From: Oceanimonas pelagia
GTDB lineage: Bacteria; Pseudomonadota; Gammaproteobacteria; Enterobacterales; Aeromonadaceae
DNA length: 64,000 nt
Direction: 5' to 3'
Assembly: GCF_030849025.1 (NCBI RefSeq)
Contig: NZ_CP118224.1
Coordinates: 3,232,501-3,296,500, forward strand
Below are positions 28,349 to 64,000 of this stretch, in pieces. The translations under genes and the position numbers were made by a program. Below the pieces are notes generated by a model, which saw only the letters and a program-made list of their open reading frames with translations, did not search any database and was not told the origin of the DNA. Every line of letters begins with the position of its first letter. Position 1 is the stretch's first letter.

Positions 28349-28367
28349 CCCTTGCCGGGAGGCAACC

Positions 28368-28733
28368 ATGTGGTTAATCGATCAACGGGCCGAACAGGCC
28401 ATCAGTCAGGCTCGGCGGGAAGGGCTGTTCGACCACCTGTCCGGTGCCGGCCGGCCCCAGCAGCTGGAAGACGACAGCCTGGTGCCCGCGCACCTGCGCG
28501 CCGGTTACCGGCTGCTGAAAAACGCCGGCTACCTGCCGCCGGAGCTGGAAGCCCGCAAGGAATACCTGCGGCTGACGGATCTGCTGGCCGCCACCGAGCA
28601 TCACACCGAGAGGGAAAAACTGGAGCGCGATTTGCGCCGGCTGGAGATCCTGCTGGGCGAGCGCTTTCGCGAGCTGCCGGTGGCGCTCACGCAGCGGGTG
28701 CTGCACGTCCGGAAAACATCAGGGCCAGCATAA
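28368..28733 (+). CDS. DUF1992 (DnaJ-homologue subfamily C28-type) protein
   Basis: A 121-residue soluble, charged protein of the DUF1992 family (E. coli YhdN-like); function unknown despite the DnaJ-C28 name, and no J domain is present. Conserved core: IDQRAEQAISQARREGLFDHLSGAGRP and LKNAGYLPPELEARKE. The start follows GGGAGGCAACC. It lies 19 bases after mnmE, possibly in the same transcript. Its last 47 bases overlap, tail to tail, with the end of the metal-transporter permease gene on the other strand. Confidence 0.82.
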   Translation: MWLIDQRAEQAISQARREGLFDHLSGAGRPQQLEDDSLVPAHLRAGYRLLKNAGYLPPELEARKEYLRLTDLLAATEHHTEREKLERDLRRLEILLGERFRELPVALTQRVLHVRKTSGPA

Positions 28734-29511
28734 ACAACACCATCATCAGCAGCACTATGGTGGGTGCCGGGGCGCTGTCGAGAAAGAACGACAGATAGAC
28801 GCCCGCCAGAGACGCCAGCACCGCCGCCAGCACCGCCCACAGCAGCATCAGGCCAAAACGGCGGGTCAGCAGAAAGGCGGTGGCACCGGGGGTGATCAGC
28901 AGGGCGATGGCCAGCAAAATGCCCACCGACTTCAGTGCCGCCACTATGGTCAGGGTAAGCAGGCACAACAAACCGTAGTGCAGCCAGCCTACCCTGAGCC
29001 CCACCGCCCTGGCCTGCACCGGATCAAAGGCGTGCAGCAAAAAGTCCTTCCACTTCATGGCCAGCACCAGCACGGTGAGCAGGGCCACGGCCCCGGTTTC
29101 CATAATGTCCCAACGGCCCACCCCGAGCATGTCGCCAAACAGAATATGATCCAGATGCACCTCGGTGCTGATGCTCACATACACCAGCAGACCGAGCCCG
29201 AACATGCCGGAAAATACAATGCCCATCACGGTGTCCTGGCGCACACGGCTGTTGGCGGAAAGAAAGCCGATGCTGAGGGCGCACACCATGCCGGCGCCAA
29301 AGGCGCCCAACGCCAGCGGCACGCCCGCCAGATAGGCCAGCACCACACCGGGAAACACGCCATGGCTCATGGCATCCCCCATCAGCGCCCAGCCTCTGAG
29401 CACCAGAAAACACGACAGCAGCGCCGCCGGCACCGCAATCAGGGCCGAAATGATCAGCGCCTGGGTCATAAAGGCGAACTGAAAGGGCAGCAGCAAATCC
29501 GGCAGGCTCAT
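28687..29511 (-). CDS. sitD: Mn/Fe ABC transporter permease, second subunit (SitD/YfeD-like)
   Basis: A 274-residue inner-membrane permease of the ABC-3 (metal) family with about eight hydrophobic segments. Typical motifs: LRGWALMGDAMSHGVFPGVVLAY near the N-terminus and GILLAIALLITPGATAFLLTRR toward the C-terminus. It is last in a four-gene operon and its start overlaps the upstream permease by four bases. Two distinct permeases with one binding protein and one ATPase is the SitABCD/YfeABCD layout rather than ZnuABC, so manganese and ferrous iron are the likely cargo. Confidence 0.86.
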   Translation of the reverse strand: MSLPDLLLPFQFAFMTQALIISALIAVPAALLSCFLVLRGWALMGDAMSHGVFPGVVLAYLAGVPLALGAFGAGMVCALSIGFLSANSRVRQDTVMGIVFSGMFGLGLLVYVSISTEVHLDHILFGDMLGVGRWDIMETGAVALLTVLVLAMKWKDFLLHAFDPVQARAVGLRVGWLHYGLLCLLTLTIVAALKSVGILLAIALLITPGATAFLLTRRFGLMLLWAVLAAVLASLAGVYLSFFLDSAPAPTIVLLMMVLFMLALMFSGRAAPAA

Positions 29512-30365
29512 GAGCGCCCTTCCCGTGCCAGCCCGGCACGCCGGCGGGCGGCCAGATAGCCGTGCCTGGGAGCAAACACAAAGACCAGCACAAAGATCAG
29601 GGTCTGCAGCACCACGATCAGGCCGCCGGTGGCGCCGTCGAGAAAATAACTGGCATAGGCCCCCAGGCCACTGGTAAGCGTGCCAAGGCCAACGGCGATC
29701 ACCAGCAGCACCGGAAAGCGGTCGGTGAGCAAATAGGCGGTGGCGCCGGGGGTCACCACCATGCAGACCACCAGAAAGGCGCCCACCGTCTGCATGGCAG
29801 CCACCGTGCAGGCCGCCAGCAGGGTAAAGAACAGCAGTTTGATGTGCATGGGATTAATGCCCACCGAGCGAGCCTGGTGCTCGTCAAAAAACACCACCAG
29901 CAGATCCTTCCATTTGCACAGCAGCACCAGCAGGGAGGTCACAGCGATGATCACCAGCTGGATAATATCAAAGGGATCGATGGCCAGAATGTTGCCCAGC
30001 ACTATGGTACGAATGTTCACCGCCATCGGCCTGAGCGACATCATGAACAGCCCGAGAGCGAAAAAGCCCGAGAAAATCAGGCCGATGATCACGTCTTCCC
30101 TGAGTTTGCTGCGCTGATGCAGCAGCAGCATGGCACCGGCGGCCAGGCCACCGGCCACAAAGGCGCCCAGGGAAAACGGCAGCCCCAGCAGGTAGGCGCC
30201 GGCCACCCCGGGCACGATGGCGTGGGACAGGGCATCGCCGATCAGCGACCAGCCCTTGAGCATCAGGTAGCAGGACAGAAAGGCGCACACCCCCCCCACC
30301 AGCGCCGACACCCAGATGGCGTTGATCATGTAACCGTAACCAAAGGGCTCAAGCAGAGTCGTCAT
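29508..30365 (-). CDS. sitC: Mn/Fe ABC transporter permease, first subunit (SitC/YfeC-like)
   Basis: A 285-residue ABC-3 family permease. Visible family motifs are [24 protein letters not shown] and [23 protein letters not shown], with about eight membrane segments. It overlaps the ATPase gene by 17 bases upstream and sitD by four bases downstream. Paired with SitD it forms the heterodimeric membrane channel of the importer. Confidence 0.87.
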
Positions 30366-49975: not shown

Positions 49976-51688
49976 ATGGATGTCAGCGGAGCCTGGTCGG
50001 CACGGGATCAAGCCCTCGGCCAAAAACTGATCGAGCAGGGCCAACTCACCGACAAGGAGCTGAGCCGGCTGACACGCATGCAACAGGGCCAGCAGGAAGC
50101 CGTGCCCCTGCCCCGTTTGCTGCTCAACCTCGGCATGATGTCGGAGCGGGAGCTGGCCCGTACCCTGGCCGAACTGCATAAGCTGCCTCTGACCGAAACC
50201 GACCGCTACCCCCTGGCCCCGCCACTGGAGCACCCCCTGCCCTACCGTTTTCTCAAGGAGCACCACCTGGTACCCCTTTATCAGCAGGACAATACCCTGG
50301 CGCTGGCCATGGTGGATCCGGACGACGACTTTGCCCTGCAGGCCATGGCCATGCTCTGCGGCCAGCCGGTGCGGGCCCAGGTGGGTGTCGGATCGGAAAT
50401 AGACGCCGCCATCGAGCGGCTCTACGGCGAAGGCCAGAGCAAGATGGGCGACATACTGTCGGCGGTGCAGCAAGAGGAGGAAACCGAGGAACGCATCGCC
50501 CAGCTGAAAGACATGGCCAGCGAGGCGCCGGTAATAAGGCTGGTGAACCTTCTCATTCAGAAAGCGGTGGAGCTGAGGGCGTCGGACATTCACGTGGAGC
50601 CCTTTGAAAACCGGCTTAACATTCGTTACCGCATCGACGGCGTACTGCAACAGGGCGAGGCGCCGCCGGTGAACATGACCCCGGCCATTATCTCGCGCAT
50701 CAAGATCCTGGCCCGGCTCAATATTGCCGAACGCCGCCTGCCCCAGGACGGTCGCATCGAGCTGAAGGTGCAGGGCCAGGATCTCGACATTCGGGTGTCC
50801 ACCGTGCCCACCATGCACGGCGAAAGCCTGGTGATGCGCCTGCTCAACCGGGAAAGCGTGGTGCTCGACTTCGACGCCCTGGGCTTTGCCGGCGACACCC
50901 GCCAGCGGTTGCAACAGGTACTGGCCATTCCCCACGGCGTGCTGCTGGTCACCGGCCCCACCGGCAGCGGCAAAACCACCACCCTCTATACCGCGCTGAA
51001 CCGGCTCAATACCACCGAGCGCAAGCTGATCACGGTGGAAGACCCGGTGGAATACCAGATGGAGGGCATTAACCAGATCCACGTCAAGCCCGCCATCGGC
51101 CTGACCTTTGCCAGCGCCCTGCGCGCCATTGTGCGCCAGGATCCGGACGTGATCATGGTAGGGGAAATGCGCGATCTGGAAACCGCCCGCATCTGCGTGC
51201 AGTCGGCGCTCACCGGCCACCTGGTGCTGTCCACCCTGCACACCAACGACGCCGCCAGCAGTGTCACCCGGCTGCTGGAAATGGGGGTGGAAGACTACCT
51301 GCTCACTTCCACCCTCAATGGCGTGGTCGGCCAGCGCCTGATCCGCGTGCTCTGCCCCCACTGCAAGGAAGGCTATGAACCGCTGCCGGAGCTGGTGCGC
51401 GAGCTGAAGCTGGAACCACTGGTGCCCGGCGAGCCGCTGCGGCTGTTCCGCCCGGTGGGCTGCGGCCACTGCGCCCACACCGGCTATCACGGCCGGCTGG
51501 CCATTCAGGAGTTGCTGGTGATGAACGATGACATTCGCAAGCTGGTGCTGAGCCATGCCGACGCCGGCCAGATCCAGCGCGCCGCCGTGGCTGGCGGCAT
51601 GCGCACCATGTATGGCGACGGCCTGCTCAAGGCCCGGCAGGGGATCACCAATGTGGAAGAGGTGATTCGGGTTACCCAGGAGGCCTGA
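49976..51688 (+). CDS. gspE: Type II secretion ATPase GspE
   Basis: Cytoplasmic hexameric ATPase that drives pseudopilus assembly. 570 residues. The N-terminal MshEN-like domain (about 10-140) binds the GspL partner. The nucleotide core has Walker A GPTGSGKT (327-334), Asp box, Walker B DPDVIMVGEMRD and His box STLHTNDA. A zinc tetracysteine motif (CPHC about 460, CGHC about 496) separates this from type IV pilus PilB-like proteins lacking it. GGGAGG lies eight bases before the ATG. First gene of an eleven-gene operon in xps order (E to N, then D). Confidence 0.95.
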   Translation: MDVSGAWSARDQALGQKLIEQGQLTDKELSRLTRMQQGQQEAVPLPRLLLNLGMMSERELARTLAELHKLPLTETDRYPLAPPLEHPLPYRFLKEHHLVPLYQQDNTLALAMVDPDDDFALQAMAMLCGQPVRAQVGVGSEIDAAIERLYGEGQSKMGDILSAVQQEEETEERIAQLKDMASEAPVIRLVNLLIQKAVELRASDIHVEPFENRLNIRYRIDGVLQQGEAPPVNMTPAIISRIKILARLNIAERRLPQDGRIELKVQGQDLDIRVSTVPTMHGESLVMRLLNRESVVLDFDALGFAGDTRQRLQQVLAIPHGVLLVTGPTGSGKTTTLYTALNRLNTTERKLITVEDPVEYQMEGINQIHVKPAIGLTFASALRAIVRQDPDVIMVGEMRDLETARICVQSALTGHLVLSTLHTNDAASSVTRLLEMGVEDYLLTSTLNGVVGQRLIRVLCPHCKEGYEPLPELVRELKLEPLVPGEPLRLFRPVGCGHCAHTGYHGRLAIQELLVMNDDIRKLVLSHADAGQIQRAAVAGGMRTMYGDGLLKARQGITNVEEVIRVTQEA

Positions 51689-51689
51689 G

Positions 51690-52910
51690 ATGGCACTGTT
51701 TCACTTTCGGGCGGTCAGCCACAGCGGCGAGGAGCAGGAAGGCCGGCTGGAAGGGGCCGATCAGCAGGCCATAGTACTGCAGCTGCAGCAGAGGGGCCTG
51801 ATCCCCCTCAGCGTGAAGCCCGCCGGCGAACGCAACACCGGCCTGCTGAGCATAAAGCTCGGCCCGGGCCGCAACGGCACCAGCGAGCGGCAGATTCAGG
51901 CCCTGACCCAGGATCTGGCGGCCCTGCTCAAGGCCGGCGTGCCCCTGGAACGGGCCCTGGGCATCATGATCCAGGTGCGCAACCGCAACGACGACACCCG
52001 CCTGCTCAGCCGCATTCGCGAGGGCATACAGCGCGGCCAGGCGCTGTCGGCGGTGCTGGCGGAGCAAAACGCCGGCTTCTCGCCCTTTTACCTCAACATG
52101 ATCCGGGCCGCCGAGATCTCGGGCAACCTGGAGCAGGGTCTGGCGGATCTGGCGCAATATCTGGAGCGCAGCCGGCTGTTGCGGGACAAAGCCCTGTCGG
52201 CCCTGATCTACCCGCTGATCCTGCTGCTGGTGTCGGCGGCCTCGCTGCTGATCATTCTCACCTACGTGATCCCCCAGTTTCAGCAACTGTTTGCCGACAT
52301 GGGCCAGGCCATGCCCCTGCCAACCCGCATTGTGATCGACACCGCCGATTTCATCAAACGCTTTGGGCTCTGGCTGCTGCTGGGGCTGCTGCTGGGGCTG
52401 CTTTATGCCCGCCGCCGGCTGCGCGAGCCCGGAGTGCGACTGGCCTGGCACACTCTGCTGTTGCGCCTGCCCCTGGCCGGCCCGCTTATTCAGCGGCTGG
52501 AGGTGGCCCGCTGCAGCCGCAGCCTGGGCACCCTGATGAAAGGCGGCGTGCCCCTGCTGGCCGCCCTCGACATCGCCCGCCAGACCCTGGGCAACCAGCA
52601 GCTGATGAAGGTGCTGGCGGAGGCCGGCCACGATCTGAAAGAGGGCAAACGACTGGCGGAGCCGCTGCAGGCCTCGGGCCGGTTTCCGCCCCTGGCCATA
52701 CAGATGATTCGGGTGGGCGAGGAAACCGGCCAGCTTGAAGACATGCTGCTGCGGGTGGCCGACACCTACGACCGGGAAGTGGAAAACGCCATTCAGCGCC
52801 TGCTGACCATACTGGAGCCGGTGCTGATCCTGGGACTGGGGGTGCTGATCGCCGGCATTATCATTTCCATGCTGGTGGCCATTCTCGGCATTAACGAACT
52901 GCCCATATAA
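51690..52910 (+). CDS. gspF: Type II secretion inner-membrane platform protein GspF
   Basis: A 406-residue polytopic protein at the centre of the inner-membrane platform, in contact with GspE and GspL. It has two T2SSF domains (about 70-195 and 275-397) with the repeated feature LxxGvPLxxAL: LLKAGVPLERALGIM and LMKGGVPLLAALDIA. Three membrane segments (about 170-195, 220-245 and 375-400) end with ILEPVLILGLGVLIAGIIISMLVAILGIN. It starts one base after the gspE stop. Length is standard for GspF. Confidence 0.95.
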   Translation: MALFHFRAVSHSGEEQEGRLEGADQQAIVLQLQQRGLIPLSVKPAGERNTGLLSIKLGPGRNGTSERQIQALTQDLAALLKAGVPLERALGIMIQVRNRNDDTRLLSRIREGIQRGQALSAVLAEQNAGFSPFYLNMIRAAEISGNLEQGLADLAQYLERSRLLRDKALSALIYPLILLLVSAASLLIILTYVIPQFQQLFADMGQAMPLPTRIVIDTADFIKRFGLWLLLGLLLGLLYARRRLREPGVRLAWHTLLLRLPLAGPLIQRLEVARCSRSLGTLMKGGVPLLAALDIARQTLGNQQLMKVLAEAGHDLKEGKRLAEPLQASGRFPPLAIQMIRVGEETGQLEDMLLRVADTYDREVENAIQRLLTILEPVLILGLGVLIAGIIISMLVAILGINELPI

Positions 52911-52934
52911 AGTGACCCATCCTGGGAGGTAAAT

Positions 52935-53363
52935 GTGCGTTATCAACCTAAACCATTCGGACTCGGCTTTACCCTGCTGGAACTGCTGGTGGTGCTGGTG
53001 ATCCTGGGGCTGCTGGCCAGCCTGGCGGGCCCTCAGGTGCTGCGCCAGCTGGGCGGTTCCAAAACCAAGACGGCGGCGCTGCAGATCAAGGAGCTGAGCA
53101 CGGCGCTGGATCTTTATCGCCTGGAGGTGGGCCGTCATCCCACCACCGCCGAAGGACTGGAAGCCCTGATCAGCGCCCCCGCCGGTGCCAGGGGCTGGAA
53201 CGGCCCCTATCTGAACAAGAAATCGGTGCCACAGGACCCCTGGGGCAACGACTACCAGTATCGCTCTCCCGGCCAGCACGGCGAGTTCGATCTGTTCAGC
53301 CTGGGGTCCGACAATCAGCAAGGAGGCTCGGGTGAAGCTCAGGATGTGGTCAGCTGGGAGTAA
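52935..53363 (+). CDS. gspG: Major pseudopilin GspG
   Basis: Main subunit of the secretion pseudopilus, 142 residues. The prepilin cleavage site is G|FTLLELLVVLVILGLLASL (cleavage after Gly11), with Glu at +5 of the mature protein. C-terminal calcium-site motif region: PQDPWGNDYQYRSPGQHGEFDLFSLGSDNQ, split here by the usual GspG loops. Translation appears to start at GTG (52935), six bases after GGGAGG; no suitable in-frame ATG exists. It overlaps gspH by 32 bases. Confidence 0.95.
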   Translation: MRYQPKPFGLGFTLLELLVVLVILGLLASLAGPQVLRQLGGSKTKTAALQIKELSTALDLYRLEVGRHPTTAEGLEALISAPAGARGWNGPYLNKKSVPQDPWGNDYQYRSPGQHGEFDLFSLGSDNQQGGSGEAQDVVSWE

Positions 53364-53802
53364 CGCCACCGGCTTTGGCTTTACCCTGCTGGAACTGCTG
53401 GTGGTGCTGACCATCGCCGTGCTGGCGCTGGCGGTGGCCCTGCCCCGCTTTGCCGCCCTGCTGCCCGGCGCCGAGCTGAAAAGCTATAGCCGGCAAACCG
53501 CCGCGCTGCTGCGGCTGGCCCGCAGCCAGGCCATAGCCACCGGTGAGCCGGTCACCCTGACGCTGAACAGCGAGCAACGGCAAACCCAGTTGTCGGGGCA
53601 GGCCCGGGGACATGCCTGGCCGGCGGCCGTGACCTTGAGCCTGTCCGGCACAGGCCCGCTGCCGGTTCCCGATGTTCCCGCCGGGCTGGTGTTTTACCCC
53701 GATGGCGCCAGCAGCGGCGGCACAGTACGGGTAGCGGGCAACGGCCGGCACTACCGCATTCGGGTCGACTGGCTCACCGGCCGGGTGGTTTTCGATGACT
53801 AG
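53332..53802 (+). CDS. gspH: Minor pseudopilin GspH
   Basis: A 156-residue minor pseudopilin: short leader, cleavage at G|FTLLELLVVLTIAVLALAV with Glu at +5, then a GspH-type C-terminal beta domain (LLRLARSQAIATGEPVTL, FYPDGASSGGTVRV). The GTG at 53332 is favoured because AAGGAGG precedes it by five bases; an in-frame ATG at 53344 would give a four-residue shorter leader. The start lies inside gspG, and the end overlaps gspI by eight bases. Confidence 0.92.
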   Translation: MKLRMWSAGSNATGFGFTLLELLVVLTIAVLALAVALPRFAALLPGAELKSYSRQTAALLRLARSQAIATGEPVTLTLNSEQRQTQLSGQARGHAWPAAVTLSLSGTGPLPVPDVPAGLVFYPDGASSGGTVRVAGNGRHYRIRVDWLTGRVVFDD

Positions 53803-54196
53803 CCCCCGCGCGCGCCAACACCAGGCCGGCTTCACCCTGCTGGAGGTGCTGGTGGCCTTTGCCGTGCTCACCGTTACCCTGGGGATACTGCTCAATCTTT
53901 TTTCCCTGGCGATTCAGACCAGCCGGACCGCCCAGGATCAGCAAAAGGCGGTGCTGCTGGCGGAGTCGAAACTGGCGGAGCTGGACGCCGGCGCGACCCT
54001 GCGCCCCGGGGTGGAGCGGGGCGAGTTCGACGACCGCTTTGCCTGGGAAACCCGCATTGAGGAATACGACAGCAGAGCCCTGATGGACAACCAGACCCTG
54101 CTGCTGCCCTACCGGCTGTCGGTGGTGGTGAGCTGGAGCGACCACCGCCGCTATGAACTCGCTACCCTGCGGCTGGTGCGTACGGAGGCCCGATGA
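53795..54196 (+). CDS. gspI: Minor pseudopilin GspI
   Basis: A 133-residue minor pseudopilin of the tip complex (GspI-J-K). Cleavage at G|FTLLEVLVAFAVLTVTLGIL with Glu at +5. The following ESKLAELDAG motif is typical of GspI. It overlaps gspH by eight and gspJ by four bases, indicating coupled translation. Confidence 0.93.
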   Translation: MTSPRARQHQAGFTLLEVLVAFAVLTVTLGILLNLFSLAIQTSRTAQDQQKAVLLAESKLAELDAGATLRPGVERGEFDDRFAWETRIEEYDSRALMDNQTLLLPYRLSVVVSWSDHRRYELATLRLVRTEAR

Positions 54197-54867
54197 CACG
54201 CTCGCGCGGCTTTACCCTGCTGGAGCTGATGGTGGCCCTGAGCCTGCTCACCCTGCTGGCGGGACTGATGTTCGGCGGCTTTCGCATTGCCAGCCGCGCC
54301 TGGCAGACCGTGGACGAGCACAACACCGAGCTGAGCGAAACGGTACAGGCCCAGCGCTTTCTGCGCCGGCTGCTGGCGCGCAGTGAAGCACGCCTGGTGC
54401 CGGAAACCCGCAACACCTCGCTGCTGTCGTTCCAGGGCGATGAGCGCTCGCTGATTTTTCTCTCGGCCCTGCCCCAGCGCCACAGCCGGGTCAGCCAGAC
54501 CGCCTGGTTCTACCTGGCGCTGGACGATGCCGATCCCGAGGCACCCTGGCTGGTGCTGAAAACTCAGCCCCTGGCCGGACTGGACGAACCCACCCCGGAG
54601 CAGCCGGACCTGATCTTTGACTGGTACCAATTGGTGGATGACTTTCAGCGCCCCGACGGTACACCACCGCTGCTCATCCTGCCCGCCGACGCGTTCAGCC
54701 TGGAGTATCTGCCCCGGGAGGAAGACGGACTGCAACCCGGCTGGCAGGGCGACTGGCAGCAGCAGGAGACGCTGCCGGCACTGGTGAAGCTGCAACTGAA
54801 CGACCACTGGCCGGCGCTGGTGGTGTCGCCCGGAGAGCAACCCCATGTTATCAAGCAACTCGAATAG
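54193..54867 (+). CDS. gspJ: Minor pseudopilin GspJ
   Basis: A 224-residue minor pseudopilin. A very short leader (MTRSRG) is cleaved before FTLLELMVALSLLTLLAGL with Glu at +5. A large C-terminal domain typical of GspJ follows (RFLRRLLARSEARLVPE, ERSLIFLSALPQ). Part of the I-J-K tip complex that primes pseudopilus growth. Overlaps gspI by four bases and gspK by 23. Confidence 0.92.
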   Translation: MTRSRGFTLLELMVALSLLTLLAGLMFGGFRIASRAWQTVDEHNTELSETVQAQRFLRRLLARSEARLVPETRNTSLLSFQGDERSLIFLSALPQRHSRVSQTAWFYLALDDADPEAPWLVLKTQPLAGLDEPTPEQPDLIFDWYQLVDDFQRPDGTPPLLILPADAFSLEYLPREEDGLQPGWQGDWQQQETLPALVKLQLNDHWPALVVSPGEQPHVIKQLE

Positions 54868-55831
54868 GCAGGGGGGCATCGCCCTGATCAGCGTGCTGTG
54901 GCTGCTGCTGCTGCTGACGGTGCTGGCCTCCGGGCTGTCGGTGAACAGTCGCAACCAGGCCCGCCAGAGCGGCAACATTGCCATTGCCACCCGGCTGCAA
55001 CAAGGCGCCGAGGCCGGCCTGCAGCTGGCGCTGCTGGCCCTGGCCCAGAGTGCCGAACAGCAACCCTGGCTGGCGGATGGCAGCCTCCACGGCGTGCCGT
55101 TCAACGACATGGAAGTATACCTGGCGCTGTTCAACGAAAGTGGCCGCATCGATCTCAACACCGCCGGCCCCGAACTGCTGAACGGCCTGCTGGCCACGGT
55201 GGAGCCCGACGACGCCCTGCGCGCCCGGCTGACCGACGCCATTATGGACTGGCGCGACGGCGACGATCTGCGCCGGCTCAACGGTGCCGAGCTCGACGAT
55301 TACCTGGCCGCGGGCCTGGACTATGGCCCCGCCAATGCCCCCTTCACCTCGGTGGAAGAGCTGCAAAAGGTGCTGGAAATGACCCCGGAGCTGTACCGGC
55401 AAATTCGCCACAGCCTGACCCTGCGCAATCCGCGCCCGGGCATCAACCCCCAGTTCGCCCCCCGCCAGGTGCTGCTGGCCCTGCCCGGGGTAAGCGAGGC
55501 CACGGTGGATCAGTTTATTGAAGACAGACGCGCCCGCTTTGAGGCGGGCCAGCCGCCCCCGGCCACCGAGCTGTTTCCTTCCGGGCTGCTCTCTGGCGGT
55601 GCCCCCGGGGTTAACTACACTATTTATACCGAAGCCCGAATGAATACGGTATATCGCTACCGGCTGACCGCCAGCCTGCTTAACCGCCGTGGCCGGCCCC
55701 TGGTACTGAAAGCGGAGCAGGAATTCGTTCCGCTGTTTACCGACATTCCCCCTGACGGAGACGCCCTATGGATGGGGAGCAAACTGCCCGCCGGCTTGGC
55801 CGGTATGGCCGCCACCTGGCGCAGCAACTGA
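54845..55831 (+). CDS. gspK: Minor pseudopilin GspK
   Basis: A 328-residue large minor pseudopilin that caps the pseudopilus. Leader ending in GG|IALISVLWLLLLLTVLASG; position +5 is Ser instead of Glu, as expected for GspK. The helical insert domain includes LNTAGPELLNGLL and DWRDGDDLRRLNGAE, and the helix-hairpin-helix-like LLALPGVSEATVDQFI. It overlaps gspJ by 23 bases at its start and gspL by 64 bases at its end, the longest overlap in the operon. Confidence 0.92.
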   Translation: MLSSNSNRQGGIALISVLWLLLLLTVLASGLSVNSRNQARQSGNIAIATRLQQGAEAGLQLALLALAQSAEQQPWLADGSLHGVPFNDMEVYLALFNESGRIDLNTAGPELLNGLLATVEPDDALRARLTDAIMDWRDGDDLRRLNGAELDDYLAAGLDYGPANAPFTSVEELQKVLEMTPELYRQIRHSLTLRNPRPGINPQFAPRQVLLALPGVSEATVDQFIEDRRARFEAGQPPPATELFPSGLLSGGAPGVNYTIYTEARMNTVYRYRLTASLLNRRGRPLVLKAEQEFVPLFTDIPPDGDALWMGSKLPAGLAGMAATWRSN

Positions 55832-56841
55832 CCCGGTTCTGGAACTGGTGGCACCGGCAATTGCTGGCCTCGTTACCGCATGGCCTGCGCCAGCGCCTGT
55901 TTCGTCCCGGCCAGCAGCTGTGCATTTATGCCGGGCAGGATCAATACCGGTTGCAACTGCAGCCCGATGGCGACATGCGGGCACTCTTCGGCATGTCTTC
56001 CGCGGAACGGCAGCAACTGGTGCAAAAGGCCGAGCAGGTACGATTGTGCCTGCCCGCCAGTGAACTGCTGCTCACTCAACTCACCCTGCCCGCCGCCACC
56101 GCCGGCAACCTGGAGAACGTGCTGCGCTTTGAAATGGACCGGCACACCCCCTTTAACGCCGATCAGGTGTATTTCGGCTTTGCCGTGGCGCCCCGGGAGA
56201 AAAACAGTCCGCAACTTCAGGTGAGCCTGCTGCTGGCCCCCAAAGCCAACATTGATGGGCACCTGGCCGAGCTGGCCGGACTGGGGCTGTATCCTGCCCG
56301 GCTGTGTGCGGCCGATCGGGCCGAAGCCCCGGTCATTGCCCTGCCCGTTCCCCCCGATGGCGCCGGCCGCAACGGCCGGCTGAAAAACCTCAACGGCGCC
56401 CTGGTGCTGATCATGCTGTTTTTGCTGATTGCCGTGCCCCTTTACCATCGCCAGAACCGCATCGACGGCCTGACCGCCGAACTGGAACAGCCCCGCCAGC
56501 GGGCCGAGCGGGCCGCGGCCCTCAAGCGCGAACTGGCCGCCCTGCAGGACAGCCGGGATTTTCTCTCCCGAAAAAGAGCCGAACGCCCCCCCACCCTGCC
56601 ACTGCTGAACGAACTCACGCAGCGGCTGCCGGATCACACCTGGCTGACACGGCTGGAGCTGGACAGCGACACCCTGCAGATACGCGGCGAGTCGGCCAGT
56701 GCGTCTGAGTTGATAGGCCTGCTGGAAAACTCTGCGCTGTTTACCGATGTGCGCTTCAGCTCGCCGATCACCAATAACCCGGCCACCAACAAGGATCGCT
56801 TCATGATCACCGCCCGCCTGGGTGAAGGGGGAGCGCCATGA
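55768..56841 (+). CDS. gspL: Type II secretion assembly protein GspL (PilN-domain type)
   Basis: A 357-residue bitopic protein expected to link GspE to the inner-membrane platform. A cytoplasmic actin-like part (about 45-210: LCIYAGQDQYRLQLQ, VRLCLPASELLLTQLTLP, FEMDRHTPFNADQVYFGF) is followed by one membrane segment (about 212-230) and a periplasmic PilN-like domain (about 235-355) with NELTQRLPDHTWLTRLEL. This PilN-containing form is typical of Xps/Hxc-like systems rather than of Aeromonas ExeL. GGAG precedes the start, which lies within gspK. Confidence 0.85.
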   Translation: MDGEQTARRLGRYGRHLAQQLTRFWNWWHRQLLASLPHGLRQRLFRPGQQLCIYAGQDQYRLQLQPDGDMRALFGMSSAERQQLVQKAEQVRLCLPASELLLTQLTLPAATAGNLENVLRFEMDRHTPFNADQVYFGFAVAPREKNSPQLQVSLLLAPKANIDGHLAELAGLGLYPARLCAADRAEAPVIALPVPPDGAGRNGRLKNLNGALVLIMLFLLIAVPLYHRQNRIDGLTAELEQPRQRAERAAALKRELAALQDSRDFLSRKRAERPPTLPLLNELTQRLPDHTWLTRLELDSDTLQIRGESASASELIGLLENSALFTDVRFSSPITNNPATNKDRFMITARLGEGGAP

Positions 56842-57446
56842 ACCTGGATGCCCGCCAGCAAAAATGGCTGGCACTGGCCCTGCTGGCGCTGGTGCTGGTG
56901 CTGGTGTTCAGCCTGATCATCAGCCCCCTGTTCAGCCTGTTCTGGCGCCAGGGGGAACGGCTGGAGCAACTGGAAAGCCAGCTGGCCCGCTACCAGCGCC
57001 TGGCCGGCGAGCTGGAGCAGACCGAGCAGCAGTTGCAGCAACTGAGGGCCGCCACCCCCAACGACAACCTGCACCTGCCCGAGCAGCGCCCCGCCCTGGC
57101 CCAGGCCTGGCTGCAGCAATACCTCAACCGCCGGGTGGCGCAAAGCGGCGGCCAGCTGGTAAGCATTCAGAATGCCCCCGCCGGCTCCGAAGGCCCGCTG
57201 CCGGAAGTCATGCTGCGGGTGCACCTGCGCAGCGAGCTGAGCGAGCTGGTGCCACTTATTCACGCCATTGAGTCGGGCACACCCGCGCTGTTTATTGAGG
57301 ACCTGGTAATCACCGCTTCACCCCGGCGGGCGCGGGTGCGCAACAACCGGGTGGTGGCCCGCCGGCAAAATGCGCAAGTGCGGGATATTCCGTCCCTCGA
57401 CGTGCGCTTCAACCTGCTGGGGTATACCCGCCAGGAGGCCCCATGA
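56838..57446 (+). CDS. gspM: Type II secretion protein GspM (T2SSM_b type)
   Basis: A 202-residue bitopic inner-membrane protein. A short cytoplasmic N-terminus, one membrane segment (about 10-30, LALALLALVLVLVFSLII), a coiled-coil-like stretch (about 38-75, rich in Leu, Gln, Glu and Arg) and a small ferredoxin-like C-terminal domain. The partner of GspL; gene overlaps of four bases on both sides support the call. Sequence conservation in this family is low, so context carries much of the weight. Confidence 0.83.
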   Translation: MNLDARQQKWLALALLALVLVLVFSLIISPLFSLFWRQGERLEQLESQLARYQRLAGELEQTEQQLQQLRAATPNDNLHLPEQRPALAQAWLQQYLNRRVAQSGGQLVSIQNAPAGSEGPLPEVMLRVHLRSELSELVPLIHAIESGTPALFIEDLVITASPRRARVRNNRVVARRQNAQVRDIPSLDVRFNLLGYTRQEAP

Positions 57447-57967
57447 CGCACACTTCCTGGCCCCTGTTGCTGATGCTGTGGCTGCCGGCGGCACTGGCGC
57501 AGACCACCGGGCAGACACCGCCGGAGTATCCGCCCCTGGAGCAGTTTGAAAGCATGCTCGAGCGGCCCCTGTTCAACGCCTCCCGGCGGCCCGAAGCCGG
57601 CGAAGACGATAACGGCCTGAGCGAAAGCGCCGCCGAAATGCGTAAAAAATGGCGGCTGAGCGGCGTGGTGTGGGAAAACGATCAGCAACTGGCGCTGTTC
57701 AGCGAGCGGGAAGGCGAAGGCCGGCAGCGCCTGCGGGCCGGCATGTATCTGGACGGCAACTGGCAGCTCGACGACATTGCCGAAGACAGCGTTACCCTGA
57801 GCGACAACGGCCAGACGCTGCGGCTGGAACTGTGGGAGCCGAGAGCGCCGTCCACCCGGCCACTGCCAGAGCAGCATGCACAGCCGCAGGCCGACGAGCC
57901 GACCGAGCAAAACAACAACGGCGATGCGCCGGACACCGAACAGGGAAGTAACGGGGAGTCATCATGA
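57443..57967 (+). CDS. gspN: Type II secretion GspN/GspC-like periplasmic protein
   Basis: A 174-residue exported protein with a signal peptide of about 19 residues (LLLMLWLPAALA). A homology-region (HR)-like beta domain begins with MLERPLFNASRRP (about 37-49), the 'RPLF...RRP' signature of GspC/XcpP and of XpsN-type proteins. The domain continues to about residue 128; a polar, Gln/Glu/Asn-rich tail follows. It sits between gspM and gspD as xpsN does. It may do the secretin-contacting job of GspC, for which no other candidate is present. Confidence 0.72.
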   Translation: MTHTSWPLLLMLWLPAALAQTTGQTPPEYPPLEQFESMLERPLFNASRRPEAGEDDNGLSESAAEMRKKWRLSGVVWENDQQLALFSEREGEGRQRLRAGMYLDGNWQLDDIAEDSVTLSDNGQTLRLELWEPRAPSTRPLPEQHAQPQADEPTEQNNNGDAPDTEQGSNGESS

Positions 57968-60051
57968 ACAGGTTTTCATTACCTCACTGGCTTGGCGCCA
58001 GCCTTATTTGCACCCTGCTGGTGGCCTGCACCACCCCCACCGGCGACCGGGCCGCCCCCGACAAACCCTGGGGCAAAAAAAGGGTGAGCAGCAGCTACGA
58101 TCCGGTGAAGCTGCCCGCCGGCGAGCAGGCCACAGACCGGCTGCCCGCCAGCCTGACTCCGGCACCGGCAGCCACGCCCGCCACCCGGGCCGAAATTTAC
58201 CGGGGCTCGGGCAACTTTATGCGCCTGAGCCAGGCGCCGCTGGCGGCGGCACCGGCCCCCGGCGACGTGACCCTCAACTTTCAGGGCTCCGACATTGCCG
58301 AGGTGGTGAAAACCATACTGGGCGACATTCTGCAGCTGAACTACTCCCTCGACGAACGGGTGCGCGGCCAGGTGTATCTGCAAACCAACCGCCCCATTCG
58401 CCAGGATGATCTGCTGCCCACCCTCGAGAGCCTGCTGCAAACCCACGGTGCCGCCCTGGTGCACAGCAACGGCCTGTTCAATGTGGTGCCCGCCGGCGAA
58501 GTGCCGCCCTCGGCCCTGAACCCGCGCCTGACTCCCACCGCCGAGCGCGGCTACCAGATGCTGATTGTGCCCCTGCGTTACATTGGCGCCCGGGAAATGG
58601 AAAAGATCCTGGAGCCGGTCAAGCCCCGCCAGGGGGCCATGATGGTGGACGACAGACGCAACCTGATCACCCTGGTGGGCACCCGCGACGAGCTCACCAA
58701 TATTCGCGACACCGTGAACCTGTTTGACGTGGACCAGCTGCGCGGCATGTCGGTGGGCCTGTTCCGGCTGCAGGCCAGCAGCGCCGACGTGATGGCCAGC
58801 GAGCTGCAGGCCATTTTCGGTGACGAGGCCGAGGGCCCGCTGGCGGGCATGGTGCGCTACCTGCCCATAGAGCGACTCAACGCCCTGCTGGTGATCACCC
58901 CTCAGGAGCGCTACCTGACCGACGCCCGGGTGTGGATAGAGCGGCTGGACCGGGCCGAGAACCCCCGGGGCCTGAACATGTACGTTTACCACGTGCAGAA
59001 CGGCAAGGCCGATCACCTGGCCGAGCTGCTCAACCAGTTGTTCGACAGCCAGCGCCGCAACAGCGCCGGCTCGCCCCTGCCGCCGGCGGCGAGCAGCAGC
59101 GAGGAAGGCAGCCCGGTACAGATTGCCACCGGCATAAACGCCGCCAACCTGGACGTGGGCGAAGTGAGCGTGATTGCCGACACCGAGCGCAACGCTCTGG
59201 TGGTGATGGCCGCCAGCGCCGACTACGAGAAGGTGGAGCAGGCCATCAAACGGCTGGACCAACTGCCGCTGCAGGTGCTGGTGGAAGCCACCATCGTAGA
59301 GGTGAGCCTGGAAGACGAACTGCGCTACGGCCTGCAATGGTATTTCAAGAACAGCCTGGGCGGCGGCCGCACCGGCGTGGGTGCGGTGGGTGCACTGCCC
59401 ATTCCCTCGCCCTTTGACGGTGGCCTGGACGTAAGCGCCAGCTACGAGGTGTTCAACGCCGCCGGCACCCGGGCCCTGCTTCAGGCCCTGGCCAGCGACT
59501 CCAAGGTCAACGTGATCTCCTCGCCCTCGCTGATGGTGCTCGACAACCAGAAAGCGCTGATCCGCGTGGGCGATCAGGTGCCCATCCGTACCTCGGAAAC
59601 CACCAACCTCAACAGCGACGTGGGCAACGTGACCAGCACCATTCAGTATCGCGACACCGGTGTGCTACTGGAAGTGACGCCGCGGGTAAACGCCGGCGGC
59701 ATGGTGGTGCTGGAGCTGGTGCAGGAGGTGAACGACGTGGCCGCCACCACCAGCTCCAACATTCAGTCACCCACCATAACCCAACGCAAGATCGACACAA
59801 GAGTCGCGGTGCAAAGCGGTGAAACCCTGGTGCTGGGGGGCTTGATTCGCGAGAACACCACCCGCGACAGCCAAGGCGTACCCGGCCTGCGCCACGTGCC
59901 GGTGCTGGGCTGGCTGTTCGGCAGCAGCGGCACCAACACCCGCCGCACCGAGCTGGTGGTGCTGATCACCCCCACCGCCGTGGCCAACGCCATCGACGCC
60001 CGCGCGGTAACCCAGGAATACCGCAGCAAGCTGCAGCAGGTGGCGATGTAA
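57964..60051 (+). CDS. gspD: Type II secretion secretin GspD (lipoprotein form)
   Basis: Outer-membrane channel of the system, 695 residues. The signal sequence ends in a lipobox, LLVAC with Cys22, so this secretin is probably lipidated and needs no separate pilotin. N0-N3 domains span about 95-420 (VTLNFQGSDIAEVVKTILGDILQLNYSL). The secretin core (about 440-690) has VNVISSPSLMVLDNQKALIRVGDQVPI, QYRDTGVLLEVTPRVNAGGMV and GETLVLGGLI. A lipidated secretin and last position in the operon match XpsD. A bidirectional terminator follows. Confidence 0.94.
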   Translation: MNRFSLPHWLGASLICTLLVACTTPTGDRAAPDKPWGKKRVSSSYDPVKLPAGEQATDRLPASLTPAPAATPATRAEIYRGSGNFMRLSQAPLAAAPAPGDVTLNFQGSDIAEVVKTILGDILQLNYSLDERVRGQVYLQTNRPIRQDDLLPTLESLLQTHGAALVHSNGLFNVVPAGEVPPSALNPRLTPTAERGYQMLIVPLRYIGAREMEKILEPVKPRQGAMMVDDRRNLITLVGTRDELTNIRDTVNLFDVDQLRGMSVGLFRLQASSADVMASELQAIFGDEAEGPLAGMVRYLPIERLNALLVITPQERYLTDARVWIERLDRAENPRGLNMYVYHVQNGKADHLAELLNQLFDSQRRNSAGSPLPPAASSSEEGSPVQIATGINAANLDVGEVSVIADTERNALVVMAASADYEKVEQAIKRLDQLPLQVLVEATIVEVSLEDELRYGLQWYFKNSLGGGRTGVGAVGALPIPSPFDGGLDVSASYEVFNAAGTRALLQALASDSKVNVISSPSLMVLDNQKALIRVGDQVPIRTSETTNLNSDVGNVTSTIQYRDTGVLLEVTPRVNAGGMVVLELVQEVNDVAATTSSNIQSPTITQRKIDTRVAVQSGETLVLGGLIRENTTRDSQGVPGLRHVPVLGWLFGSSGTNTRRTELVVLITPTAVANAIDARAVTQEYRSKLQQVAM

Positions 60052-60055
60052 AAAA

Positions 60056-60079
60056 GGCCATCGCTGCAAAGCGATGGCC
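60056..60079. terminator. Bidirectional terminator after gspD
   Basis: A 10-bp perfect stem, GGCCATCGCT / AGCGATGGCC, with the loop GCAA. An A-run precedes it (good T-run for the leftward gene) and a weaker AATTACTTT follows. Confidence 0.75.
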
Positions 60080-60133: not shown

Positions 60134-61198
60134 TCAGGGCATCAAACGCATCACATCACTGGCTTCGAATTCAACTTCTTCGTTTTCATCGTTCAGGTAT
60201 TTACCACTGATGCTGATCAAACGTGCTTCACGCTCGTTCACCTCGCCCAGCTGACCAGCCACACACTGACTGTTGAACTTCAGGGTCAGATCTGTCCAGC
60301 CATCGGCTCCCTCTGCGGTACATTCATTCTCCAGCACCGGCTCACTAAAGCCGCCGTCATAGGGTGTGGCCACATCTTCATAAGACCAGCGCAGGGCCTC
60401 ACAGTCGCCGGCCATTTTAACGGTATCGGGCAGAATGCGGGAAACATCAAATTCTTCCGATCCCAGAATAGCCACCGGAATTACCCCTTTCTGAGTCATT
60501 TTCAGCGGATTGGGGCAGGAAGTGGGCTTGATATCCACCTTCACCGGTGCTGCCGCAGCAACACAGGCGGTCAGTACCGCTTCGAGAACAGGGGTAGCAT
60601 CTTCCTGGAATGAAGCCAGATTGAAAAGCTGCCCACCGGTAGCATCGGCGAGAGGCTGAGCTTCGGTAAAAAGGCCGCTCGGCATAATACCAAAGAAGAT
60701 ACCCCCTTCCGCCGTCATGGCATCAATCGCATTTTGCCGGGTTACTGTACCCTGAGCCGGCGTTTCATCGGTAATCAGAATGTTACAGTAGGGCGCGCCG
60801 GTAAAGCCCAGCGAATCTCCATCCACGGTATCGGTAGCCGACTCGACCACCGCCCGGTAACCTTCCTCAAAGCCCCCGTTGGCCACCAGCTCATTCACCG
60901 CTGTCTGAAAGGCGGTACTGTCAGTGGTCAATGGTGAATGCAGGTGTGGCGCCTGACTGGTACCGTGCCCACTTTTGCTGGAACCATATCCCACCAGGCC
61001 AACATGAGATCCTGCCGGCAGGGCGTTAAAAATGGTCACCACATTAGCCTTTACATCGGCAATTTCCCCCCCCATAGAGCCGGATTCATCGATTTTAAAA
61101 ACCACGTCTATGCCCTGGGCATAGACTCCGCCGCACGCCATGGCCACCGCCAGGGCGCAAATCGTATTACGTGCTTTTTGTTGCATATGTTTCATCAT
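60134..61198 (-). CDS. Secreted von Willebrand factor type A domain protein
   Basis: A 354-residue exported protein. Signal peptide of about 27 residues (ICALAVAMACGGVYAQ), then a VWA domain (about 30-205) whose metal-ion site motif DESGS is at residues 38-42, with a later Thr and an ITDE aspartate. VWA domains bind proteins or matrix. The C-terminal part (about 217-354) holds IKPTSCPNPLKM, KGVIPVAILGSEEFDVSRI, LRWSYEDVATPYDGG and DGWTDLTLKFNSQ, a motif set I recognise from many secreted bacterial and archaeal proteins but cannot name. It is more AT-rich than the neighbouring operon. Convergent with gspD; a plausible secretion substrate. Confidence 0.8.
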   Translation of the reverse strand: MMKHMQQKARNTICALAVAMACGGVYAQGIDVVFKIDESGSMGGEIADVKANVVTIFNALPAGSHVGLVGYGSSKSGHGTSQAPHLHSPLTTDSTAFQTAVNELVANGGFEEGYRAVVESATDTVDGDSLGFTGAPYCNILITDETPAQGTVTRQNAIDAMTAEGGIFFGIMPSGLFTEAQPLADATGGQLFNLASFQEDATPVLEAVLTACVAAAAPVKVDIKPTSCPNPLKMTQKGVIPVAILGSEEFDVSRILPDTVKMAGDCEALRWSYEDVATPYDGGFSEPVLENECTAEGADGWTDLTLKFNSQCVAGQLGEVNEREARLISISGKYLNDENEEVEFEASDVMRLMP

Positions 61199-61754
61199 TT
61201 TGCCTGCTATCTATGTCAGTTAATAACGCAGAGGCAATAAAACTTGCTGCCAGCTATCGCACTCTCTTCACTGAACACAAAACCTCTCCGTGCTTAACAA
61301 AGGTAAAAAATGGCCCAAAACCAACGGAACCACGCAGCTCAGCTGAGGCAATAAATGTACCGAAAACATAAACAGCTGAATCAGCAGGATTTATAAAAAA
61401 CAAAACAAAAAAAAACAAAAAAATGTAAACAAAATGCAACATTAAAGCTGACTAAAAAAAACAAAAAACATAAAAAACAACAAGTAAAGCGAACTTAAAA
61501 ATGTATCAAAATGCTAACACCACCAATAAAAAACATAATAATCAATACTTTATAAAGCCATCATATCTTTTCCTCATCAGCCTAAAACCTTGAGGAACAC
61601 TCTCCCCCTGTTTCACAAGTGAAACAACTTCCGCATATTTATACTTCCCACAATCAACAAAAATTAAAATAACAACATATAAATCAACATCTTATTAATT
61701 ATGGTTCGTTATATGCAGTAAACCCGTAAATAATAACCGTCTTGGAGCAACACA
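61199..61754. other. AT-rich intergenic region between divergent genes
   Basis: 556 bases without a believable gene, in strong contrast to the GC-rich surroundings; 61381-61540 is mostly A with short CA breaks. It must carry the promoters of the leftward VWA gene and the rightward 423-residue gene. Such DNA is a typical target for H-NS-type silencers. A 62-codon leftward frame (61254-61442) is low-complexity and is not called. Confidence 0.6.
61609..61626. other. parS-like palindrome with a 2-bp insertion
   Basis: TGTTTCACAAGTGAAACA: both parS half-sites are perfect (TGTTTCAC and GTGAAACA) but separated by AA. In the canonical sites at 11.0 and 18.05 kb the halves touch. Whether ParB, a relative such as a ParB-like regulator, or another protein binds it is unknown. 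Confidence 0.6.
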
Positions 61755-63026
61755 ATGATACAGGAAACGGTTTCACCGAATCAGGATGATGCCTTCAGCT
61801 GGATTATCGGGCTGCTGGCGCTTGGGCTGGCTGCATGGCTGATGTATGAAGCCTGGTTCGAGCCACCTTCTCCCCTGACAGTGACACAAGGCTCACAGGT
61901 GAAAAGTGAGATTCAAAAAGATACAACTCTCTCAGCTCCTCACTTGCCATCTCAAGTTTATTCACCCACTTACAAAGCCGCTCCCCCTTCAACCTTGCCT
62001 TCCTTAACCGCCAGCGGGCTGCTGGAGCAACTGACCTTGTGGCAGTATCAGCAAGTAAACACTCTGAGTGCCGACGACATTCGCCAGATAAACAAGGAGC
62101 TGACTCAACTAGCCAGCTTGGGCGAAAGTGCCATTCCGGTTATTCATCAGTACCTGAACAGCGGCCAGGATGTAGATTTTCAGGCTTTCGGCAATGGGCA
62201 GAACTTAAGCCAGCCATCGTTACGCTTGGCCCTGTTCGAAGTGCTGCATCGTATCGGCGGAGATGAGGCGGAATTCATCTGGGCCGAGTCACTCGGTAGC
62301 ACGAGTATTCCCCAAGAGATCGCTGTACTGGGCAAATACTTGGAGGAACGGGCCCCCGGCTACTACCGCAGTGATATCATCACCGCCGCTCGGGAGGCGT
62401 TTTATCTGGCCACTGATGAAGGAATCGGCGGCCGGGATGCAGGGCCGCTGTTTCAGGCATTCAAAAGCTATGGGGATTCCGCCCTGGTGCCAGAACTGGA
62501 ACAGGTGTCACAACTCAAATGGGGTCAATATGCAGCCGTAGCCTTGGCCGGTCTCCCCGATGGTCAGGGCATTCCCAGCTTGGCCCGTCAGGTACAAGGC
62601 GCTTCACCGACTGACTTAAGTGCTCGTTTTGCCCTGCAGATGCTGGCTCAGCAAGCGGATCACCCTGACGCTCAGCAAGCACTGCTGGGGAGTCTGCAAC
62701 AACAGCTTATCCAGGATTACCTGTGGCCCGAGATGGCCGGGCTGCTCGCCGGCACCTACCACATCCAGATCGCGGCTCCATCCAACGCCGTTCACCCAAC
62801 GACAGCTCGGCTCCGCTCCACCAAGAAGATGACATCACTCACCCCGGGAGGAGGACAGCGGTTGTATGGCATGCACTACTTCCAGACCACCCTGAGCGAG
62901 GAACAACTGCTTCCCCGCCTCAGATTGATAGAAGCAATGTACCAGGAAACATCCAACCCCAAAGCAAAGCGAGCCCTGGAGCAAGCCTATGACGTCATTT
63001 GGGCCGCATTGGCTATCCAGGAATAA
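61755..63026 (+). CDS. Unrecognised membrane-anchored protein with helical-repeat-like body
   Basis: I do not recognise this 423-residue protein. It has one N-terminal membrane segment (about 14-30, FSWIIGLLALGLAAWLMY) after a short acidic N-terminus, so the rest is probably periplasmic. A Pro/Ser/Thr-rich linker (about 37-83) follows, then a long mostly helical region (about 85-420) with Leu/Ala-rich units such as QLASLGESAIPVIHQYLNSG and AALAGLP-type turns resembling HEAT/armadillo repeats. TTGGAG precedes the ATG. It is more AT-rich than the secretion operon. It lies 68 bases upstream of a large exported protein on the same strand and may help its export or anchoring. Confidence 0.7.
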   Translation: MIQETVSPNQDDAFSWIIGLLALGLAAWLMYEAWFEPPSPLTVTQGSQVKSEIQKDTTLSAPHLPSQVYSPTYKAAPPSTLPSLTASGLLEQLTLWQYQQVNTLSADDIRQINKELTQLASLGESAIPVIHQYLNSGQDVDFQAFGNGQNLSQPSLRLALFEVLHRIGGDEAEFIWAESLGSTSIPQEIAVLGKYLEERAPGYYRSDIITAAREAFYLATDEGIGGRDAGPLFQAFKSYGDSALVPELEQVSQLKWGQYAAVALAGLPDGQGIPSLARQVQGASPTDLSARFALQMLAQQADHPDAQQALLGSLQQQLIQDYLWPEMAGLLAGTYHIQIAAPSNAVHPTTARLRSTKKMTSLTPGGGQRLYGMHYFQTTLSEEQLLPRLRLIEAMYQETSNPKAKRALEQAYDVIWAALAIQE

Positions 63027-63094
63027 ACGGCAGGCCAAAGTTCTACTTTGGCATTTTTTAATCCCCAGAATCACGGAATCAGGAGAGTCTGACA

Positions 63095-64000
63095 ATGAAG
63101 ACGCTTTCGACCAAGAAGAAACTAACGGTGCTAATGGTTAGCGCCATGCTGGGAACCAGCTTGTTAGCCACAGACGCCCAAGCCGGCCACTACCAGCGGA
63201 GTCTGGAGGGCAGCCAATTTGAAATCGATACCAACGCCAATCTGATATTGGATGCAGGCTTGACACTGGACTGGGCAACTGTTGCCAGTGGCCCAGACCC
63301 TAAATATGCAGAGAAGGACGATGCGCCGACCGGCAAAAATGACGACTCCTTCTCCGGGGGGACCAAGGAGGATACCCAGAACCCTAATACCACCACAGGT
63401 TCCATCCCCAACAACAAGAGTGATTTGCTAAAGTTCGGCGCCTTCCAGGAAGGCACCCAATTCCTGCATCTTTACTGGGCCAGAGTACAGAATCCCTCCG
63501 GCACCACCTTGATGGATTTCGAGTTCAATGCGGGTGATCAGGGGCTGGGCAGCAATGGCTTCCCCATCCGCTCCGCCGAGGATCTGCTGGTGGAATACAA
63601 GCTGGCCCAGGGGGGGACCACCCCCGAGTTGTTCCTCTATGAATGGCTGACGGAAGCTGCCCAGGGCAGTTGTGAGGCCAGCAACAAATACCCCTGTTGG
63701 GGTAATATGCAGAGTTTGGCCGGTAAGGCCAGCGGCAGTATCAATACCTCCGGAGCCAATGCGGCCAGTATCGGTCTGGGCACACTGGATCCCTTTACCT
63801 TCGGTGAAGCCAGTATCGACCTGTCCAAGGTATTCCCTGCGGGGGAATGTAAGTCCTTTGGCTGGGCCTACCTGAAGAGCCGCTCATCAGACTCCTTCAG
63901 CGCCCAAATGAAGGATTTCATCGCACCGACCCCGGTCAACATCACCAACTGTGCCAACGTCACCGTCATCAAACAGGACGATGCCACTCCCCCCAAAGCC
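63095..64000 (+). CDS. Exported surface-type protein, N-terminal part (runs off the window)
   Basis: 302 codons are visible with no stop. Signal peptide of about 31 residues (KKKLTVLMVSAMLGTSLLATDAQA). The mature N-terminus is an apparent beta-rich domain with no cofactor motif I recognise: HYQRSLEGSQFEIDTNANLI, FLHLYWARVQNPSGTTLMDFEFN and several Gly/Ser/Asn-rich turns. At about residues 290-302 the sequence TVIKQDDATPPKA resembles the entry to a Cna-B/SpaA-like prealbumin domain, as in bacterial adhesins. AGGAGA lies eight bases before the ATG. A likely substrate of the neighbouring secretion system, by position only. Confidence 0.75.
   Translation, partial: MKTLSTKKKLTVLMVSAMLGTSLLATDAQAGHYQRSLEGSQFEIDTNANLILDAGLTLDWATVASGPDPKYAEKDDAPTGKNDDSFSGGTKEDTQNPNTTTGSIPNNKSDLLKFGAFQEGTQFLHLYWARVQNPSGTTLMDFEFNAGDQGLGSNGFPIRSAEDLLVEYKLAQGGTTPELFLYEWLTEAAQGSCEASNKYPCWGNMQSLAGKASGSINTSGANAASIGLGTLDPFTFGEASIDLSKVFPAGECKSFGWAYLKSRSSDSFSAQMKDFIAPTPVNITNCANVTVIKQDDATPPKA

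Follow-up and report, generated by a model that had tools for sequence, protein, structure and literature searches.

A variable bay of exported-protein genes within an xps-like type II secretion locus of Oceanimonas pelagia

Why do genes for exported proteins sit inside a type II secretion system (T2SS) locus of Oceanimonas pelagia, and do the two belong together? The genes lie at the end of a 64,000-nucleotide stretch of DNA (the window, G000:C1:3232501-3296500) from a 3.59 Mb genome on one contig (G000). A first-pass annotation had placed three open reading frames (ORFs) directly after gspD, for a secreted VWA protein of 354 amino acids (aa), a 423-aa protein and an exported protein starting at 63095, and all three are found there. 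The reading that we favour, at a probability of roughly 0.6, is a variable cargo bay within an xps-like T2SS locus, with the cargo driven by an activator, exported by the T2SS and helped by the 423-aa protein. The locus continues beyond the 3' end of the window and was completed from the genome sequence outside it (locus L002, where window position equals L002 position + 59500). Its features are:

49976..60051, + strand: gspE to gspD operon of an xps-like T2SS (ORFs; GspD by TIGR02517, middle genes named by eye)
60056..60079, no strand: hairpin GGCCATCGCT/AGCGATGGCC where the gspD and VWA genes converge, read by eye, probably a terminator
60134..61198, - strand: secreted VWA protein, 354 aa (ORF; PF00092, E 6.8e-8; signal peptide by eye)
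61347..61362, - strand: weak sigma-54-like site preceding the VWA gene (score 8; the counterpart in genome G047 scores 10)
61702..61717, + strand: sigma-54-like -24/-12 site TGGTTCGTTATATGCA, 38 bp before the 423-aa gene (the identical 16 letters precede the G047 gene)
61755..63026, + strand: 423-aa 'HEAT' protein, with N-terminal membrane helix, linker and alpha-solenoid (ORF; structure model)
63095..64000, + strand: first 302 codons of the 672-aa exported SpaA protein (ORF; gene end at L002:5613)
L002:5673-7019, - strand: 448-aa protein with dockerin and Big_7 domains (domain search)
L002:7728-9113, - strand: sigma-54 activator with a VpsR domain (domain search)

The genes run in the order gspE to gspD, VWA (reverse), 423-aa HEAT, 672-aa SpaA, dockerin-like (reverse), VpsR-type sigma-54 activator (reverse), gspA and gspB. 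Because the dockerin-like gene, the activator gene, gspA and gspB come next, the module sits between gspD and gspAB of one T2SS locus, and the three genes first proposed as a set are too few, as the dockerin-like protein and the activator also belong to it. The locus is a T2SS both by GspD, which scores 499.7 bits against TIGR02517 (curated cut-off 351.35), and by GspB beside GspA (PF16537, E 1.1e-20; GspA_C39-like, E 5.5e-8). The genes 3' of gspB are mioC, mnmG, rsmG and parA (names assigned by eye).

We compared this interval across 75 genomes of the family (23 of the window's genus, g1; 37 of g2; 11 of g5) and used a sample of 394 genomes from 114 genera for the order. GspD is detected at E <= 1e-80 in 17 of the 75 family genomes, all of them g1 (17/23), and the bay comparison comprises G000 and the neighbourhoods from the 16 others, with start codons set by rule. 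gspD and gspA are separated by as little as 40 bp (G043) and as much as about 15 kb (G041); the stretch examined in G059 has no gspA after gspD. The families that recur in it are SpaA, 'FELDGN' (a label coined here for proteins that are partly DUF11- or Big-type), DUF7507, VWA, HEAT, dockerin-like proteins and metzincins, the last carrying Big_9/cadherin repeats and an invariant HExGHxxGxxH motif. As relatives hold different sets in the same slot, the locus resembles a plug-in bay for surface proteins, and we regard the bay between gspD and gspA as almost certainly real.

The bay content follows the activator. The activator is detected at E <= 1e-150 in 13 of the 23 g1 genomes, all among the 17 with GspD, and cargo is present in 12 of these 13 bays compared with none of the four bays without activator (Fisher p 0.002). 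The four that lack both are G043, G045, G046 and G059, of which G045 has a 306-aa ORF outside the recurring families; the G042 bay spans two contigs (L036, L091) and a contig end interrupts the G057 gspD. The six GspD-negative g1 genomes, which have no GspD above the family cut-off either, show no match at the thresholds used to HEAT, SpaA, metzincin, the leader described below or the activator (VWA, FELDGN and DUF7507 were not searched there). The recurrent unit in the bays is an exported beta-rich protein facing a metzincin, and in the bay loci compared 11 of 11 g1 metzincin or dockerin-like genes are convergent with an exported-protein gene. Ten g1 metzincins (L027, L029, L033, L035, L036, L037, L041) end in Gly/Lys-rich tails, such as GGKGPNK and GKGNGKKR, possibly a sorting or binding tail.

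Unrelated gene bodies carry a common leader. Identity to the corresponding stretch of metzincin genes in other g1 genomes is 68-81% over the opening 29 bp of the dockerin-like gene plus some 330 bp before it, and past this stretch the proteins have no similarity in an all-against-all comparison. A search with the leader gave 13 rows in 8 of the 23 g1 genomes, every one within a bay locus (two G060 rows are pieces of one copy, and the row G042:C50 is L091, which carries the metzincin, the activator and gspA). The bay may thus evolve by swapping gene bodies behind fixed leaders, the dockerin-like gene using the leader and first codons of a metzincin gene. The leader (L002:7020-7345 and aligned copies) contains an extended -10 element, TGCTATAGT or TGTTATAGT, an inverted repeat TTTTATTCC/GGAATAAAA in most copies, and long invariant blocks, and it occupies the slot held by a c-di-GMP-I riboswitch in other lineages. 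As a riboswitch it was rejected: no Rfam family matches at gathering score (one sub-threshold row belongs to another family), the mean folding z is -0.92 over 11 copies compared with -3.95, -1.22 and -3.46 for three c-di-GMP riboswitch leaders, and only 3 of 32 RNAalifold pairs have changes on both sides. It could equally be a promoter region that binds a protein.

What drives the cargo genes? The activator has VpsR (PF20161, E 4.5e-13), AAA (PF00158, E 5.6e-71) and Fis-type helix-turn-helix (PF02954, E 7e-11) domains, and a GAFTGA loop is recognized by eye. Assignment to a PEP-CTERM/XrtA system was rejected, with PrsR at 408.2 bits (cut-off 502.6) and the XrtA-associated ATPase at 267.9 bits (cut-off 324.5). 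We scored GG-N10-GC sites against TGGCACGN4TTGCW in upstream sequence only, with a threshold of 9 and dinucleotide shuffles (an earlier scan used block shuffles and included 100 bases of each gene). In g1 and L006, a locus in a metagenome-assembled genome, such sites precede 16 of 22 lead cargo genes, 1 of 13 metzincin or dockerin-like genes and none of 21 activator and gspA genes (lead versus activator and gspA, Fisher p 3.6e-7; the gspA control is a subset of 8 genes). The 22 exclude three SpaA genes directly behind HEAT (scores 6, 6 and 9), counted as operon members. The threshold was picked after a first look at these same loci, so the loci outside g1 and L006 are the fairer test; there, 12 of 18 exported-protein genes have such a site, compared with 2 of the 53 genes for metzincins and activators (Fisher p 1.1e-7). 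All of these p values are optimistic, since sequences within the sets are related. We consider it highly likely that the activator controls the lead cargo genes: it would turn them on from -24/-12 promoters, here the operon of the 423-aa and SpaA genes and probably the VWA gene. The 423-aa and SpaA genes are 68 bp apart and likely form one operon.

Could these simply be acquired low-GC genes, clustered by chance and functionally unlinked to the T2SS? The lower GC content that had been noted is borne out (51.9% for 60134-64000 compared with 63.0% for 1-60000), with 33.5% in the intergenic stretch between the VWA and HEAT genes and 54-56% in the three coding parts, and HEAT is rare: two genomes (G000 and G047) have it among the 75 of the family, and the same two among the 394 of the order sample, besides L006. 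However, related protein families occupy this slot in 12 g1 genomes, the slot is seen again in another family, the cargo tracks the activator and the promoters are of one class; the conserved slot and promoter class already disfavour chance, which we consider highly improbable. Elsewhere in the window, one 2-kb block (28001-30000) has an unusually strong AT skew of 0.300.

The gspD-gspAB-linked exported cargo recurs in another family (G089, G149, G113, G165; the linkage lies in genus g20 of f16). In G089, gspD is followed by an exported protein, a metzincin and an activator (both reverse), gspA, gspB and a mioC-like gene, and in G149 gspD lies beside exported-type bay proteins; the full bay order is repeated in G089 and L006. 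In a GspD tree (n = 28), 18 bay-type loci are split from 10 canonical ones at 100/100, and only this split is used because branches are long. Metzincins are detected at E <= 1e-20 in 14 of 75 family genomes, where the G000 row is a repeat-domain match only and lies outside the locus; long matches occur in seven g1 genomes, 6 of 11 g5 genomes and none of the 37 g2 genomes. The order sample has metzincins in 25 of 394 genomes and 8 of 114 genera. Twenty metzincin genomes lie outside g1, G089 and G149, and the context was examined in 19 of them (G293 left out): these 20 loci have an activator-type protein in 18, a FELDGN protein in 11 and gsp genes in two (G113, G165), against a chance rate of 0.12 for an activator near a metzincin, which is our own estimate. 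The six g5 loci have an exported protein in five and an activator in five, G070 having neither. In G070 (L090, 11356-13723), two ORFs that by eye resemble an IS21-type transposase pair lie where other g5 genomes hold the exported-protein gene.

Several observations weigh against the favoured reading. No gsp match is found in the six g5 loci, although all six genomes carry GspD over the cut-off elsewhere, and g5, like other genera, has loci that combine the activator, the exported protein and the metzincin without a visible gsp gene. This core module is thus more ancient, or more mobile, than its association with this T2SS. All five exported-protein genes of g5 stay below a promoter score of 9, and the relatedness behind the p values counts on the same side. 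G048 has the activator and an empty bay. In G053 the VWA gene is present without SpaA or HEAT, and as L006 has HEAT and SpaA with no VWA match in its 21 kb, the proposed complex of the VWA and large proteins is not supported. The evidence on HEAT comes from three copies. Finally, a plasmid of Arthrobacter, which belongs to a group without T2SS, carries a relative of the SpaA protein (35% identity); this and the stand-alone modules bear on the refuting condition set in the first-pass annotation, homologues regularly found without a T2SS. In the order sample, the matches of the large-protein profile (5 of 394 genomes, the three beyond G000 and G047 weak at E about 1e-4) all lie in bays.

The stand-alone modules and the Arthrobacter relative would fit a different account, in which the cargo consists of Sec-exported proteins of the surface or matrix, encoded beside the T2SS and sharing its regulation but taking a different path to the surface; the 423-aa protein would then be no secretion helper. 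We consider this unlikely, given the linkage of cargo to gsp genes in g1 and in g20 of f16, the presence of another GspD in all six g5 genomes with the stand-alone module, and the C-terminus of the SpaA protein, which by eye ends ...CTINVDP without an LPXTG tail. In the favoured reading of a T2SS cargo bay, the exported proteins would pass the inner membrane by Sec and probably exit by the flanking T2SS.

What would the cargo do? The SpaA protein is 672 aa long, its gene ending about 1.1 kb beyond the window. The Cna-B-like segment anticipated in it corresponds to three SpaA prealbumin-like (Cna-B-type) stretches (E 2.5e-21), and its N-terminal domain is modelled at a predicted local distance difference test (pLDDT) of 43.9. 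It was rejected as a sortase-anchored SpaA pilin or adhesin, as the SpaA domains are present and the LPXTG-type anchor is not. Its place of action may be the cell surface or close to it, with attachment or service as matrix the likeliest roles; for attachment itself we see even odds. The VWA protein was rejected as a marine sortase target (E 0.12 only). The dockerin-like protein has dockerin and Big_7 domains and no protease domain. At L006:4155-4997, a DsbA-like thiol-disulfide protein (CPFC, by eye) is encoded between an exported SpaA-type gene and a metzincin gene.

The membrane-anchored, helical-repeat layout first suggested for the 423-aa protein agrees with its structure model, which has a helix at 11-34, a disordered linker and a solenoid at 86-332 (pLDDT 66.9, predicted template modelling score 0.60); the helix is hydrophobic by eye, with a local pLDDT of only about 35-59. 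The protein matches no Pfam family at E <= 0.5 and no NCBIfam foldase (one weak row is irrelevant), which rejects a lipase-specific foldase by sequence, and Foldseek with the model returned general solenoids, none at E <= 0.001. No HEAT relative was found in the plasmids or viral contigs searched. All three HEAT copies stand directly upstream of a SpaA gene, two of them within a bay and the third some 7.5 kb away from gspA. One described class of T2SS chaperones has an N-terminal membrane segment and an effector-adjacent gene, and effector secretion requires it (PMC4713064); the 423-aa protein has the predicted N-terminal transmembrane segment and a gene beside that of its putative client, SpaA. 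By this analogy it may help SpaA export, a role that we rate somewhat below even odds: kept in the inner membrane, its periplasmic solenoid would hold or hand over SpaA, as LipB- and CpaB-type chaperones do.

A third account starts from the convergent pairs of exported protein and metzincin: under cyclic di-GMP (c-di-GMP) control the exported protein would attach and the metzincin process or shed it. A c-di-GMP-I or c-di-GMP-I-GGC riboswitch (Rfam) precedes the metzincin-slot gene in 15 of 44 genes, namely 6/6 in g5, 3/3 in G089 and G149, 3/20 in the further loci (G113, G165, G432; the Rfam search covered 20 short loci from 18 genomes), 3/3 in L006, where one precedes the dockerin-like gene, and 0/12 in g1. 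A precedent is reported for Clostridioides, where c-di-GMP riboswitches of opposite sign govern adhesins on one side and the protease cutting them on the other (PMC6366702). Against this account stand the lack of a known riboswitch in the 12 g1 genes and the lack of a metzincin in the bays of G000, G047, G053, G054 and G055. The riboswitch leaders of L006, L099, L100 and L085-L090 have flanking repeats, such as AAAGATCCTC/GAGGATCTTT (by eye). A possible helix around the aptamer excludes a hairpin over the ribosome-binding site, which suggests that the relatives' riboswitches act as ON switches; this polarity, opposite to that of the Clostridioides protease, also speaks against the account. We find such a pair rather doubtful; as the dockerin-like protein takes the metzincin slot in the window's genome, the pair would have been rewired there.

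In the bay of this genome, L002 contains no Rfam c-di-GMP aptamer at gathering score, and Rfam in E-value mode finds none before the dockerin-like gene and none between gspD and SpaA. A c-di-GMP link here would follow only from kinship and the VpsR domain. Direct gating of GspE was rejected, as ALGQKLI stands (by eye) where the arginine of the RLGDLLV motif, characteristic of c-di-GMP-gated ATPases of the GspE type (MshE; PMC4624772), is expected.

Under the cargo-bay reading, one locus offers a predicted cargo list, switch and helper for a T2SS, which opens T2SS substrate choice and surface-protein control to simple deletions. If true, the exchange of bodies behind a conserved leader would be surface-protein diversification without rewired control. 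Among open-licence papers, we recognized no description of this locus by title, and found none combining a c-di-GMP riboswitch, type II secretion and a metalloprotease, or type II secretion, prealbumin and gram-negative. We tentatively propose, while thinking it may well not hold, that this is an undescribed gammaproteobacterial modular locus of a VpsR/sigma-54-driven adhesin-like protein and a riboswitch- or leader-controlled metzincin or its replacement, housed in several lineages in a bay within its own xps-like T2SS where gene bodies are swapped behind fixed leaders, together with a new solenoid family of client-specific export chaperones.

Parts of this locus resemble known systems. Like LipB/CpaB of Acinetobacter and lipase-specific foldases, the 423-aa protein combines an N-terminal membrane helix, a periplasmic helical body and an adjacent gene for a putative exported client, but it differs in lacking a Pfam or NCBIfam foldase match, in its alpha-solenoid model and in the SpaA repeats of that putative client. 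GbpA of Vibrio cholerae, which is secreted by a T2SS, is likewise a secreted attachment factor under c-di-GMP-I control, whereas it is a single gene with no local activator, bay or partner. Its control by the Vc1 c-di-GMP-I riboswitch is reported to be positive (PMC4744006). The Clostridioides adhesins and ZmpI (PPEP-1) are similar in placing adhesin-like proteins beside a secreted metalloprotease, and in several relatives of the window's genome a riboswitch of class I precedes the gene in the protease slot. The relatives share the protease gene beside the adhesin-like gene and differ in being Gram-negative, T2SS-linked in some lineages, of another protease family and without a sortase anchor, and the window genome's slot has neither protease nor known riboswitch. 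Finally, the activator shares its VpsR, AAA and Fis-type helix-turn-helix domains with VpsR of Vibrio cholerae and other c-di-GMP-linked sigma-54-type activators, and differs in having GAFTGA and adjoining genes with sigma-54-like sites.

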